A stretch of 64,000 nucleotides of DNA from Roseomonas sp. KE0001 (lineage in GTDB: Bacteria; Pseudomonadota; Alphaproteobacteria; Acetobacterales; Acetobacteraceae). This document shows positions 28,590 through 38,809 of this stretch, piece by piece; position 1 is the stretch's first letter; every line of letters begins with the position of its first letter. Under the pieces are notes generated by a model that worked only from the letters and a program-made list of their open reading frames with translations, did not search any database and was not told where the DNA came from. The position numbers were made by a program, and so were the translations under genes. The stretch covers positions 620,001-684,000 of the forward strand of contig NZ_RCVQ01000001.1 in NCBI RefSeq assembly GCF_016107285.1, in the 5' to 3' direction.

Positions 28590-28664
28590 GCCGACGTAGC
28601 TCAGCGGTAGAGCAACTGATTCGTAATCAGTAGGTCCCCGGTTCAATCCCGGGCGTCGGCACCA
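28590..28664 (+). tRNA. tRNA-Thr (anticodon CGU), integration site of the satellite element
   Basis: A complete cloverleaf: acceptor GCCGACG/CGTCGGC, D-arm GCTCAGCGGTAGAGC, anticodon loop with CGT at 28622-28624, T-arm CCCGGTTCAATCCCGGG, discriminator A and encoded CCA. The 3' half (from 28619) is duplicated at 38764-38809 as the right attachment site, so the intact gene was rebuilt by the element's own copy of the 3' end. Confidence 0.97.
28619..28664 (+). repeat. Left attachment core (46 bp) of the integrated element
   Basis: The 46 bp from the anticodon arm to the CCA end of tRNA-Thr are identical to 38764-38809. Flanks differ immediately on both sides. Confidence 0.95.
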
Positions 28665-28698
28665 TAATTCCAATGGCTTAGCCGGAATTAGCCCAGCC

Positions 28699-28729
28699 TG
28701 TTTCCCACTTTTTCCAAAAGTGTTTCCCA
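28699..28729. repeat. Two direct copies of TGTTTCCCA beside the integrase gene
   Basis: TGTTTCCCA occurs at 28699-28707 and 28721-28729, 22 bp apart, between the left attachment core and the integrase stop. Another copy (TGTTTCCCAA) is at 35889-35898 and an inverted TGTTTCCC at 38706-38713, close to the right attachment site. Spacing and location fit arm-type recombinase sites; this is inference. Confidence 0.5.
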
Positions 28730-28735
28730 ATCGGT

Positions 28736-36084: not shown

Positions 36085-37703
36085 TATGGCTCGGTCCTGC
36101 TGCTGCGCAGGCCGATGCCGCGCACCCAAGGCGTTCCGTTGTTCTTTGCGTAGCGAAGGGACGGCATTCGCTCGATCAGGCTGCGCAGACGCCGATTGTC
36201 CGCGATGGGCTCACCGTTCTCCTGGCACCAGTCCTGGAAGGAGTGCAGCAGCGCGGCCGGGCGGGTGCTGAGGCTGGGCTCGATGATGCAGCACTCGGCC
36301 AGCCAGCGGCCGAAGTGATCCTGCGCCTCGAAGTACTCCGCCGTGGCCTCGGTCACCGCATGCGGCTTGCTCAGCCCCTCGCGCTGCCAGGCGAGGCACC
36401 CCTCGACCATCCAGCGCAGGATGCCGGGCCACTCCTGCCGCAGCTTCTCCGCCAGCTCGCGGTCGGGCTGGGCGGGCCGGTGCAGGAAGGGGATGATGTT
36501 GAAGCGCCGCCGCGCCGCCTCATCCACGTTCTTCAGCGCCGGCTTGTGGTTGCCGATGATGGTCAGCTTGAACTGCGGCCGGAACTCGAAGAAGTCACGC
36601 CGCATGAAGCGCGCGGCCAGCACGTCGCCGCCCGTCATCTGCTTGATGCGGCTCTCCGCCCAGGCCCGGCCTTCCTCGGTCTCGCTGGCGGTCACCAGCC
36701 GGGCGCCGCGCAGCATGGCCAGCTCGGTCGGGTGCCGGTCGTTGTGCGAGGCGGTGAAGGTCTCCATCGGCGCCGTGCGGGCGTAGTCGCCCAGGATGCC
36801 GGACAGGGCCGAGATGAAGACGCTCTTGCCGTTGCCGCCGCCGCCATAGACGAAGGCCAGGGCATGCTCCCGCGTGTCGCCCGTCAGGCAGTAGCCGGCC
36901 CAGAGCTGGAGGAAGCGCACCAGCTCGGCATCGCCGCCGGCGGCCTCATGCAGGAAGGCCAGCCAGGCCGGGCAGGCGGCCGTCAGGGCCGGCGCCACGG
37001 CCGTGGCCTTGGTGATGCCCTCCGCCTGCCTGGCCGGGCGCAGGCGCCCTGTCCGCAGCTCCACCGTGCCACCGGGCGTGCCCAGCAGCCAGGGATCGGC
37101 ATCCCAGGCCGAACTGACCACGGCCATGCCCTCGTCGGCCTGCGCGAAGCGCTCCACCCCGGCGGCGAAGGCGGTGCGGCCGGTGACGGCACGCGTCTTG
37201 AACTCGGTGCGGCGGTTCAGGCTGGCGACCAGGCGCCGGGCCCAGGTGAAGGCGAGCTTGGTCTCGTTCTGCTGCCAGCGGGCGCCGTCCCACATGAACC
37301 AGGCGCCGGTGTGGTGGCAGTAGCGCAGCCGATTGCGGAACCGCCGGGCGAACTCATCCGCCACGCCGTGTTCCGTCAGCTCGACATCGGACGGCATCTC
37401 CTCGGCATCGGGCAGGGGAGGCGGCCGGCGGCGCGGGGGGAGGGTGGTGATGCTGGCGCCCGCAGCCGCGAGCCGTTGCTCGGGAGAGGGCGGCGCCGGA
37501 TCGGCGGCCGCCGCGACCGCCGCGACCGGCGGCGGTGCGGCCTTCTGTCCCGCCACGGCACGGGCCAGCTTCTCGGCTTCCTTCCGCTTGCGGTAGGCGC
37601 GCAAGCTCTCGCCCTTGCGGCGACGGCCTCCGTTCCTGCCGTTCTCCCGTGCCGCAATGGCCTTGCGCGACAGGCCAGCAGGCGTGGCGTCCTGGCCTTC
37701 CAT
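36084..37703 (-). CDS. P4-like phage primase/helicase (D5-type)
   Basis: The 539-residue protein probably drives replication of the excised element. The N-terminus (1-105) is basic and Ala/Pro-rich. The central D5/primase-associated domain begins FARRFRNRLRYCHHTGAWFM. The SF3-like helicase has Walker A GGGGNGKS (287-294), the following Walker B-like segment around GARLVTASETEEGR, and the sensor IIGNHKPALKN. A DUF5906/D5 C-terminal winged helix follows. Its ATG overlaps the stop of the TOPRIM gene by one base. Confidence 0.9.
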   Translation of the reverse strand: MEGQDATPAGLSRKAIAARENGRNGGRRRKGESLRAYRKRKEAEKLARAVAGQKAAPPPVAAVAAAADPAPPSPEQRLAAAGASITTLPPRRRPPPLPDAEEMPSDVELTEHGVADEFARRFRNRLRYCHHTGAWFMWDGARWQQNETKLAFTWARRLVASLNRRTEFKTRAVTGRTAFAAGVERFAQADEGMAVVSSAWDADPWLLGTPGGTVELRTGRLRPARQAEGITKATAVAPALTAACPAWLAFLHEAAGGDAELVRFLQLWAGYCLTGDTREHALAFVYGGGGNGKSVFISALSGILGDYARTAPMETFTASHNDRHPTELAMLRGARLVTASETEEGRAWAESRIKQMTGGDVLAARFMRRDFFEFRPQFKLTIIGNHKPALKNVDEAARRRFNIIPFLHRPAQPDRELAEKLRQEWPGILRWMVEGCLAWQREGLSKPHAVTEATAEYFEAQDHFGRWLAECCIIEPSLSTRPAALLHSFQDWCQENGEPIADNRRLRSLIERMPSLRYAKNNGTPWVRGIGLRSSRTEP

Positions 37704-38686
37704 CAGCCGAGCCTCCGCGCCGTGTCGTCGAAGTCCTCGCCGGGCGGCGCCAGGCACAGCGTCACCTCGCGGCCGGCCTCCTGCCAGCGCTCGGCGCAGT
37801 CCGCGGCGGCCCGCTGCCCGGCCGGATCGCCATCCGCGAAGACGGTCAGCGCCTCGATGCCCGACAGCACCGGCAGGCGGGCGATGCCGCCCGCGCTGGT
37901 GGCCGCCCAGACTGGCGACCAGCCGAAGCCCTGCATCACCCGCAGCGCCGTCTCGATGCCCTCGGCCACCCCCAGCGCGGCGCCCACCTCGGCATCGGGC
38001 ACCAGGCGGATGAGGCCGGCATGCCCGGCCATCATCTTGGCCTGGCCGGGCGCCTTGCCGCCGCCATCGGGTTGCAGAAAGGTCCTGTGCACGCCGCAGG
38101 GCTGGCCGGTGGCCGGATCGGTCATCAGGGCCAGCATGGCCGGCAGGCGCTCCGCACCGCGTGGGCAGGCCGGATGGAAGCGCAGCGGCGCCCCGGCCGG
38201 CAGCGTCAGGCCACGCGAGGCCAGATAGGCGGCCACCAGCGTATCGGCGGCCGGCTGGCTCTCCCGCCAGAGCTGGCGGGCCAGATCCAGGGTGCCGGAA
38301 GCGGCGGGGCCGTTCGGCGCCACGGCGCGGGGCAGGGGCCGGCGTTCCGCCGGGCTGATGCCGAGCCAGCTCACCGCCCAGGCATAAGCCTCCCGCATCG
38401 AGCAGCGGCGCAGGTGCGCGACCAGGCCCAGGGCATCACCGCCACGCCCGGCCTCATGGTCGTACCAGCTCCCGCGCTCCGCCCCCTGCACCACCACGGC
38501 GAGGCTGCCATGCCGGCCGAAGCGCCAATGCCGGCCCGTTTTGCTGCTGGGCTTGGCGCCGGTTAGCGTCGTGGCGAGATCGCCGACTGAACCGGAAAGG
38601 GCGGCCAGACAGTCATCTAGTCTGGTACGCGAATCGTCGCTGCGATATGTTCCCGGTGCTGCAATTCGTTCGTTGATTTGACCCAT
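37703..38686 (-). CDS. TOPRIM-domain DNA primase of the element
   Basis: The 327-residue protein has an N-terminal region with a zinc-ribbon-like fold but no cysteines (WRFGRHGSLAVVVQGAERGS followed by WYDHEAGRGGDAL). The C-terminal TOPRIM domain has VAEGIETALRVMQGFG and TVFADGDPAGQRAA, with the acidic Glu and Asp-x-Asp. This is the pattern of satellite and plasmid primases that act with a separate helicase, here the next gene. The ATG at 38686 is the first supported start. Confidence 0.88.
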   Translation of the reverse strand: MGQINERIAAPGTYRSDDSRTRLDDCLAALSGSVGDLATTLTGAKPSSKTGRHWRFGRHGSLAVVVQGAERGSWYDHEAGRGGDALGLVAHLRRCSMREAYAWAVSWLGISPAERRPLPRAVAPNGPAASGTLDLARQLWRESQPAADTLVAAYLASRGLTLPAGAPLRFHPACPRGAERLPAMLALMTDPATGQPCGVHRTFLQPDGGGKAPGQAKMMAGHAGLIRLVPDAEVGAALGVAEGIETALRVMQGFGWSPVWAATSAGGIARLPVLSGIEALTVFADGDPAGQRAAADCAERWQEAGREVTLCLAPPGEDFDDTARRLG

Positions 38687-38763
38687 TTCATCACCGCCTT
38701 GCAGCGGGAAACAGGTTGGTCTAACCGACTGAATTTATTGAAATTATTGGCCTGACCTATCGC

Positions 38764-38809
38764 ATTCGTAATCAGTAGGTCCCCGGTTCAATCCCGGGCG
38801 TCGGCACCA
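38764..38809 (+). repeat. Right attachment core (46 bp), tRNA-Thr 3' fragment
   Basis: This is identical to 28619-28664 and contains the anticodon arm, T-arm and 3' acceptor with CCA of tRNA-Thr, but no D-arm or 5' acceptor, so it is not a functional tRNA. Confidence 0.95.

Follow-up and report, generated by a model that had tools for sequence, protein, structure and literature searches.

How would an integrated element that encodes a phage head, and no recognisable tail or terminase, have its DNA packaged? The question is raised by a locus in Roseomonas sp. KE0001, lying in a stretch of 64,000 nt (GCF_016107285.1, NZ_RCVQ01000001.1, 620,001-684,000, forward strand) that was analysed as a whole and is called the window here. 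The favoured answer is that the element probably belongs to a terminase-free subtype of integrated phage satellites that form their own capsid, and would use a foreign large terminase (TerL) and foreign tails. A sequence-only reading had earlier proposed a working satellite with a probably small capsid. It holds up in part: the locus is integrated and satellite-like, carries head genes of its own, gives no tail or terminase match and lies in a host of the Acetobacteraceae, while its working, packaging, induction and capsid size stay predictions.

An element bounded by repeats at a tRNA gene

The element is delimited by the following features.

28590..28664, + strand, tRNA-Thr (anticodon CGT), whose 3' end at 28619-28664 is the left att repeat
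38764..38809, + strand, right att repeat, identical to 28619-28664

The 46-bp repeats in tRNA-Thr and its fragment, and the unit of 10,145 bp between them, were reproduced, with 46/46 identity between 28619-28664 and 38764-38809 at a spacing of 10,145 bp. In five genomes of the same genus (L200, L203, L204, L206 and L207) the site is empty, an intact tRNA-Thr joining the two flanks without the element, and since there are also capsid relatives with the same head-gene order, the repeat-bounded unit is more than chance. The frames of all element ORFs are open and starts overlap between the head genes, again as first described. Megablast of the element against phages and plasmids gave no match, and no copy of the element itself in another strain was found among the relatives searched. 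Genes for integration, regulation and replication are as follows.

28736..29797, - strand, tyrosine integrase, 353 aa (PF00589 1.4e-8; phrog_1 5e-35)
29784..30053, - strand, AlpA/excisionase-type HTH protein, 89 aa, or 116 aa from 30134 (PF12728 5e-8; phrog_66 1.3e-8)
35353..35619, + strand, divergent Xre-type regulator, 88 aa (PF01381 3.3e-10)
36084..37703, - strand, P4-family primase C-terminal domain/helicase, 539 aa, or 557 aa from 37757 (TIGR01613 1e-89; NF011296; D5_N)
37703..38686, - strand, DUF7146 and TOPRIM (Toprim_3) primase-like protein, 327 aa (profile match)

These family matches agree with the AlpA-like and Xre-like regulators, the P4-like primase/helicase and the TOPRIM primase of the sequence-only reading, and with its integrase, to which a near-complete catalytic set had been ascribed. 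Box II of tyrosine integrases normally has a histidine; here, and in the relative L098, it reads RDLRRT without that residue, which fits "near-complete". The P4-type protein, with the Walker A motif GGGGNGKS, covers the primase C-terminal part, and the TOPRIM protein is a separate gene.

Head genes

30055..31206, - strand, HK97-type portal, 383 aa (TIGR01537 9e-53; PF04860)
31206..31751, - strand, HK97-type prohead protease, 181 aa (TIGR01543 1.9e-30; PF04586)
31751..33040, - strand, HK97-type major capsid protein, 429 aa (TIGR01554 2e-31; PF05065)

All three head proteins had been named from the letters, and each now has its TIGRFAM match. Position 31751 both ends the capsid ORF and starts that of the protease, and 31206 both ends the protease and starts the portal. 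The resulting order, capsid-protease-portal, is the reverse of that in HK97, and it recurs in 113 of the 115 family loci that have the full trio (near-copies counted), the two exceptions being L087, where the circle is cut inside the portal, and L024, a contig with two modules. In named genomes the relatives of the capsid are 36-81% identical to it; for those in IMG/VR (80 of 165 relatives kept) the figure is 47-69%.

Since HK97 genes are phage genes, an ordinary prophage fragment might account for all of this, and a mere piece of a complete prophage had been named from the outset as a reading that would undo the satellite. It is very improbable: against it stand the flanking repeats and empty site, phage records that match the capsid at below 60% identity without exception (59/59), other bounded elements of 10,658 and 17,351 bp in the same genome, seven of 129 family loci whose identical ends point to circles of 9.8-10.7 kb, and no tail family among the 25 commonest of 92 families in 113 unassigned ORFs (of 162 candidates) from 30 TerL-bearing relatives. 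The other PHROG scans of pooled ORFs likewise show the 25 commonest families, so that a match confined to one locus could be missed; a tail assembly protein is carried by the relative L034. A complete prophage differs, too, in its tail module and terminase, which are not matched in the window element.

A head without a recognisable packaging motor

Among the element's ORFs no match to TerL, HNH, connector or tail families was obtained with Pfam, PHROGs and NCBIfam, nor any to a small terminase family, and with models built from relatives neither a terminase segment (in six frames) nor HNH was found; these absence calls are HMM-based, and a divergent terminase could escape them. The profile search for terminase, head-tail adaptor and HNH, and that for a terminase or tail gene remnant, thus left intact the claim of an own capsid with no recognisable tail or terminase, and this capsid-encoding element at tRNA-Thr is confirmed as real. 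Head-tail connectors, missing here by HMM, are matched by the connector model in only 12 family loci, so that many relatives give no match either. The remaining ORFs are small.

33019..33351, - strand, u112, SpoVG-like small protein, 110 aa (AlphaFold model pLDDT 80)
33354..33860, - strand, u191, MerR/CvkR-type regulator, 168 aa (structure model)
33949..34764, - strand, u280, 271 aa, no family match
34791..34973, - strand, u67, small ORF, 60 aa, similar to an ORF in the C23 element by by-eye comparison
34970..35242, - strand, u90, 90 aa, first gene after the RNA leader, with homologs in relatives

A cryptic terminase could be sought among these five, as u280, u90 and u67 gave no convincing family match in profile scans. 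However, u191 models as a predicted CvkR/MerR regulator and u112 as SpoVG-like (Foldseek best match SpoVG 2ia9, prob 1.00 but E 0.035), Walker A is absent from u280 by the one pattern tried, and every unassigned protein is under 285 aa, short for TerL proteins, which are normally longer than that. Such a hidden terminase is hardly credible. Homologs of u280 occur in C12, C45 (weak), L049, L113 and C23, and in the TerL-bearing L051.

An element without tail and packaging-motor genes probably borrows both. When a helper infects the cell or induces the element, the AlpA and Xre regulators would set free both excision and the leader operon; replication would fall to the P4-type helicase and the TOPRIM protein, and the element would build a procapsid from its own head proteins, portal included. 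An outside TerL, from a helper phage or from a co-resident 17-kb satellite (C45), might then dock on this portal and package the element DNA, and helper tails would complete the particle. Portals are generally held to require a TerL that matches them, and compatibility between terminase and head is normally thought narrow; a motor-less layout would imply that a head can be filled by a terminase foreign to it. In descriptions of known capsid-forming satellites, head and packaging machinery are made together and only tails are taken. A recurrent capsid-protease-portal layout without a motor would separate head-making from packaging, with a bearing on how satellites diversify and cross between helpers, and would extend capsid-forming satellites into the Acetobacteraceae with a minimal gene set.

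Terminase among the relatives

By a coverage rule, and with gene calls from a home-made caller, 66 of 80 loci were labelled as bearing TerL and 14 as lacking it, 28 more being uninformative; gaps in assembly or decay may lie behind some of the TerL-less labels, as L068, which keeps HNH without TerL, and L113, with its split portal, suggest. Left out of the count were duplicates or near-copies (L001, L022, L040-L043 and L106-L108, the last three being copies of L105 by eye) and loci outside the family (L038, L039, L046-L048); loci without a long capsid or any portal match were dropped, and the short loci L002-L021 lay outside the survey. HNH is present in 53 of the 66 TerL-bearing relatives. 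As most of the relatives judged have TerL, usually with HNH, the broader family resembles the capsid-forming phage-inducible chromosomal islands (cf-PICIs), reportedly those of Alqurainy et al. 2023. The same locus type was found in another genome of the Acetobacteraceae, probably that of Rhodovarius lipocyclicus (NZ_JAAABL010000024.1).

On a capsid tree, to which the window element and L049 were added with hand-made labels (the L049 contig ends inside its capsid, and only the upstream side is seen), 66 of 82 rows bear TerL and 16 lack it. The label needs 11 changes, at least six of them forced by starred branches, in a quick tree with SH-aLRT only and 32 of 103 inner branches drawn open; on this tree TerL has been lost or gained repeatedly within the family. 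A TerL search of 17 records gave no phrog_9 or phrog_2 match in any of the 13 virus records, and of four whole genomes one matched phrog_9 and two phrog_2, at coordinates outside the elements. Three circular relatives (L028, L087 and L111) have no integrase match; P27-type small terminases occur in the TerL-less circles L087 (phrog_83 1.8e-25) and L111 (1e-12, with a head-tail adaptor at 3.8e-27). Similar P27 matches in L091, L096 and L099 were set aside, as they were seen with a local iterated model only.

With TerL the common state, the window element could instead be a decaying capsid-forming island, in which HNH-TerL has been lost, packaging is no longer possible and the head genes are going. 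In the TerL-bearing L057, L054, L102 and L143, TerL ends 0.07-0.6 kb upstream of a conserved leader block, so that a deletion there would explain the window layout, and portals are broken in L113 (split), L030 and L044. Yet the frames of the window element are open, two TerL-less elements sit in one genome, and substitution ratios suggest constraint. The capsid dN/dS is 0.25 between the window element and L049, and capsid and protease give 0.16-0.29 in five of six pairs among the TerL-less C12, L098, L095 and L113, at capsid sequence differences of 17-29%, the ratios being rough because NG86 dS values are high. Constraint is weaker for the capsid between the window element and C12 (0.60) and for portal pairs with L095 (0.53-0.66), and the comparisons showed no clear constraint on u112, u280 and u67. 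In most pairs the head-gene substitutions fit purifying selection, and decay appears unlikely, while carrying more weight than any other rival.

Comparison with known satellites

An AlpA-type regulator is typical of cf-PICIs, and the window element shares with them att-site integration, such a regulator, its own replication proteins, capsid, protease and portal, and no tail match. It differs in its 10.1 kb and in having no match to TerL or HNH, and the TerL-bearing relatives fit cf-PICIs much better; head-tail connectors, large and small terminases and HNH are listed for cf-PICIs (PMC10690885). That the element is smaller than most of its class holds against the published cf-PICI mean of 14 kb (PMC10803314), but circles of its own family are usually about 10 kb.

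P4 traits include an AlpA-type regulator and integration at tRNA genes. Both are found in the window element, together with a P4-family primase/helicase; P4 has no head of its own and resizes P2 heads (PMC10690885), whereas this element encodes capsid, protease and portal. MulchRoom and MiniFlayer of Streptomyces do have their own portal and capsid, and MulchRoom is believed to take its tail from a helper, but they carry small and large terminases and no obvious replicase (PMC10690885).

Satellite-plasmids of Vibrio are likewise small and tail-less, and the circular relatives L028, L087 and L111 resemble them in giving no integrase match. Of these, TG54 (cf-PISP) carries terminases, and TG93 (PISP) has a capsid protein, a protease, a small terminase and a MerR-like regulator, and its authors propose disruption of head assembly (PMC13230959). 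The head proteins in the window might similarly serve as a weapon, co-assembling with helper heads or disrupting them, and the element would then be packaged in helper or mixed heads by the helper terminase; other subsets of virion genes are indeed borne by related integrated elements (contexts of L189-L191 seen in part). TG93 has a capsid of a different family, PF03864, and no portal is mentioned for it; the window element is integrated and has one. A full set of capsid, protease and portal under apparent purifying selection looks more like a functioning head than a poison, and the TerL-bearing majority of the labelled family retains its packaging set, both of which make the weapon quite unlikely next to the terminase-free satellite.

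Islands in the same genome and a leader RNA

Two further bounded elements of the family type occur in the same genome. C12, at tRNA-Ala, has 23-bp repeats 10,658 bp apart and no TerL match; C45 measures 17,351 bp and carries TerL (ten proteins scanned). A hunt for a helper in this genome with phrog_9, phrog_2, phrog_15 and PF10145 brought up only the C45 TerL, and by these four families it shows no complete tailed prophage. No shared cos/pac motif was identified, and blastn comparison of the islands led to the conserved leader block.

Four leader-bearing islands are present in this genome: two are head-only and terminase-free, one of 17 kb has head genes with small and large terminases, and one has head-decoration and minor-tail genes. 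In this bacterial family, islands on one shared chassis (integrase, AlpA, primase, divergent repressor and hairpin leader RNA) with different incomplete virion sets might complement each other, with the co-resident satellite lending its terminase to the TerL-free ones and the leader RNA coordinating expression. Such an arrangement is a long shot; if true, the terminase-free islands would be satellites of a satellite. The conserved leader RNA is a possible common switch for such islands.

35239..35316, - strand, structured RNA leader (model R1, 75.8 bits; covariation)
35986..36084, no strand, 26-bp perfect inverted repeat, 35986-36011 / 36059-36084 (repeat search)

A covarying RNA hairpin is seen in the leader of the window element and of other integrated elements, in an alignment taken without a misplaced C12 row.

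Boundaries and integration site of the window element

Judged from its sequence, the window element is best read as an integrated capsid-forming satellite. The sequence-only reading had placed a single unit between 46-bp repeats at tRNA-Thr, and this holds: ARAGORN calls the tRNA gene, and its final 46 bases recur identically at a distance of 10,145 bp. The integrase, HK97-type head genes, AlpA-like and Xre-like regulators, and P4-like and TOPRIM primases recognized there were likewise all named by family scans, which report an integrase, an AlpA/excisionase-type HTH protein (AlpA), an HK97-type portal, protease and capsid, an Xre regulator, a P4-family primase C-terminal/helicase protein and a DUF7146-TOPRIM protein. 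These scans gave no convincing match for the other five ORFs (u112, u191, u280, u67 and u90). The intact frames with overlapping starts were also found, with all frames open and adjacent head genes overlapping end to start. The G+C content of the element does not depart from that of the rest of the window.

28590-28664, tRNA-Thr (CGT)
28619-28664, final 46 bases of the tRNA gene, first repeat copy
35239-35316, minus strand, structured leader RNA
35986-36084, 26-bp perfect inverted repeat
38764-38809, second repeat copy

One arm of the inverted repeat is G-rich and its end coincides with the primase stop codon; it may possibly be a terminator or an origin.

The right flank was used as a query against 17 same-genus genomes, including the element's own, and was matched in 16. 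Five of the loci fetched (L200, L203, L204, L206 and L207) are the empty integration site. There an intact tRNA-Thr, 97-100% identical, stands between the two flanks: the left-flank match lies 0.1-0.6 kb ahead of the tRNA, and the right-flank match begins about 90-120 bases past it. At the remaining fetched loci, one piece of the three went undetected, lay about 1.2 kb off, or fell beyond the stretch retrieved.

Other islands of the same genome

Three more islands were found on other contigs of this genome (G000).

C12 element, L037:7835-18515 (G000:C12), 10,658 bp, 23-bp repeats at tRNA-Ala
C45 element, L038/L039 (G000:C45:163437-180835), 17,351 bp, repeats ending with tRNA-Arg
C23 island, L183 and the end of L220 (G000:C23), running off the contig end

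The C12 element carries an integrase, AlpA, portal, protease, capsid, u112, u191, u280, u90 and a 701-aa primase-like protein, with no match to a large terminase (TerL), and is a second bounded terminase-free capsid element in this genome. The C45 repeats begin at 163,437 and 180,788, and 31 successive shared 18-mers make them 48 bp long. This element has TerL, a P27-type small terminase, capsid, protease, portal, primase and integrase, with no tail match among the ten proteins scanned; it has u90/u280-type genes and the leader RNA in common with the window and C12 elements. Its TerL is the only one that phrog_9, phrog_2 and phrog_15 detected in the genome. The C23 island, the fourth leader island of the genome, encodes a head decoration protein (phrog_49, 7e-26), a minor tail protein (phrog_1924, 5.5e-71), a TOPRIM protein and u280-, u67- and u90-like genes. 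The tape-measure family PF10145 had no match in the genome.

The capsid family and its gene order

Relatives of the capsid occur at E <= 0.001 in 16 of 150 Acetobacteraceae genomes, its own included and many of them distant, and a search with the single capsid found 15 IMG/VR loci. An alignment of 16 capsids as query yielded 37 loci in named genomes, and 79 IMG/VR loci from the best 80 of 165. Among the family loci is one in Rhodovarius lipocyclicus (NZ_JAAABL010000024.1); the nearest relative, at 81-82%, is in Pseudoroseomonas rhizosphaerae YW11 (L049). All 59 matching INPHARED phage records, and all 8 PLSDB records matching at E <= 1e-20, are under 60% identity.

Counting near-copies, 115 family loci have the complete set of head genes, and 113 of them carry capsid, protease and portal in this order on one strand. 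The HK97 head-gene order is the reverse. Of the two exceptions, L087 is a circle cut within the portal and L024 a contig holding two modules. The two head-module copies of L024 are 68% identical over 982 bp, with a primase between them, and no TerL match was found there. Another relative, which has TerL, contains a tail assembly protein (L034:9151-9777; phrog_32, 1e-46), and no further tail matches were noticed in it.

Presence and absence of the large terminase

The common layout in relatives is TOPRIM/primase, HNH, TerL, capsid, protease, portal, AlpA and integrase; TerL and capsid are often separated by a u191-type gene. The order is instead integrase, capsid, protease, portal, HNH and TerL in several beta- and gammaproteobacterial loci, some of which have a connector. 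Both TerLs scanned from relatives are of phrog_9 type. Under our own coverage rule, 108 loci divide into 66 with TerL, 14 without it in which the relevant region is covered, and 28 that are uninformative; HNH accompanies TerL in 53 of the 66. The window element falls in the group lacking TerL.

On a quick capsid tree of 108 rows, 82 of them labelled (the window and L049 by hand), the TerL label switches 11 times, with starred branches forcing 6 or more of these switches, so TerL has been lost or gained more than once. The label is clustered on the tree, with a value as low in only 2 of 500 shuffles. The window and C12 capsids are not sisters there, and both elements share u112, u191, u280 and u90 neighbours; homologs of all four are present in TerL-bearing loci too.

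Seven loci have identical ends, implying circles of 9,833-10,659 bp, and three of them (L028, L087 and L111) lack TerL. These are circular contigs of about 10 kb with capsid, protease and portal, and with neither a TerL nor an integrase match. The name of L028 presumably points to an isolate genome. P27-type small terminases occur in L087 (phrog_83, 1.8e-25) and in L111 (phrog_83, 1e-12); L111 encodes a head-tail adaptor (phrog_442, 3.8e-27) as well. Keeping only the small terminase would be understandable if packaging were driven by a foreign TerL.

The absence of TerL could also reflect decay, and the broken portals in L113, L030 and L044, as well as an HNH gene without TerL in L068, speak for this reading. 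Open frames, dN/dS, the TerL-less circles and the small terminases without TerL point instead to a living terminase-free state. Pairwise NG86 dN/dS, rough given the high dS, is 0.25 for the capsid between the window and L049. Among C12, L098, L095 and L113, capsid and protease give 0.16-0.29 in five of six pairs, and the portal 0.23-0.29, apart from two L095 pairs at 0.53-0.66 in which that portal is only 35-37% identical. Portal, protease and capsid give 0.23, 0.43 and 0.60 for the window against C12, and 0.19, 0.17 and 0.47 against L098. Against L049, the primase (0.50) and u191 (0.56) are followed by u112, u280 and u67 at about 0.8-1.0, that is, with no clear constraint.

In published descriptions, capsid-forming phage-inducible chromosomal islands (cf-PICIs) carry capsid, protease, portal, connectors, small and large terminase and HNH (PMC10690885), average 14 kb (PMC10803314), and, according to a review, make their own capsids, which fall into three separate clades (PMC11389934). 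A 2026 paper presents capsid-forming satellites that are circular and have terminases; a smaller satellite in it, TG93, combines capsid and protease with a small terminase (PMC13230959). The window element resembles cf-PICIs in being integrated and capsid-forming, and its wider family is cf-PICI-like, but it departs from the packaging part of their definition. Among the titles and abstract openings covered by a literature search, none reported a capsid-forming satellite without a large terminase, though such a report may exist in print. The window element most likely works as a satellite that borrows both terminase and tail.

A leader RNA shared among islands

The conserved block upstream of u90 consists of a hairpin and then a conserved stretch (CCTRACC...). 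Across 13 sequences, both sides change in 6 of 11 pairs (as high in 3 of 500 shuffles) and the covariation score is 0.361 vs 0.123 shuffled (0/500); further pair types, at 9, are not above shuffles (422/500 as high). With 31 model-aligned matches, an alignment that leans toward the model and includes one antisense match, the values are 9 of 11 pairs and 0.415 vs 0.117 (0/500), and sliding partners by 1-3 columns lowers the score to 0.071 or less. Rfam gave no family at gathering score for the seven distinct occurrences searched. We infer that the RNA is a putative regulatory leader.

By the rough E-values of the model, matches at E <= 0.001 number four in the window's own genome, one per island, with a fifth at 0.0018; 80 of 150 Acetobacteraceae genomes have matches at E <= 0.01, 30 of them (hand count) below 1e-6. 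By eye, small genes often follow the leader, with an Xre or ribbon-helix-helix gene opposite it, and an integrase match is nearby in 8 of 13 readable contexts. It is not limited to satellites, as L195 and L196 have no integrase or head-gene match, and is common to several kinds of integrated elements.

Further leader islands hold different subsets of virion genes. One at tRNA-Ala (L187/L222, G124:C7), adjoining a folD-like gene (named by eye) like the C12 site, has a tape measure (phrog_8125, 1.7e-34), a capsid/protease fusion (phrog_4523, 3.7e-115), AlpA and integrase, and neither terminase nor portal was seen by eye. Another, near tRNA-Arg (L192/L221, G016:C43), has the leader RNA, a tape measure (phrog_9570, 3.9e-31) and a baseplate hub (phrog_196, 3.8e-50), with no head gene seen by eye. 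A third (L184) carries a different terminase (phrog_15, 1.7e-189).
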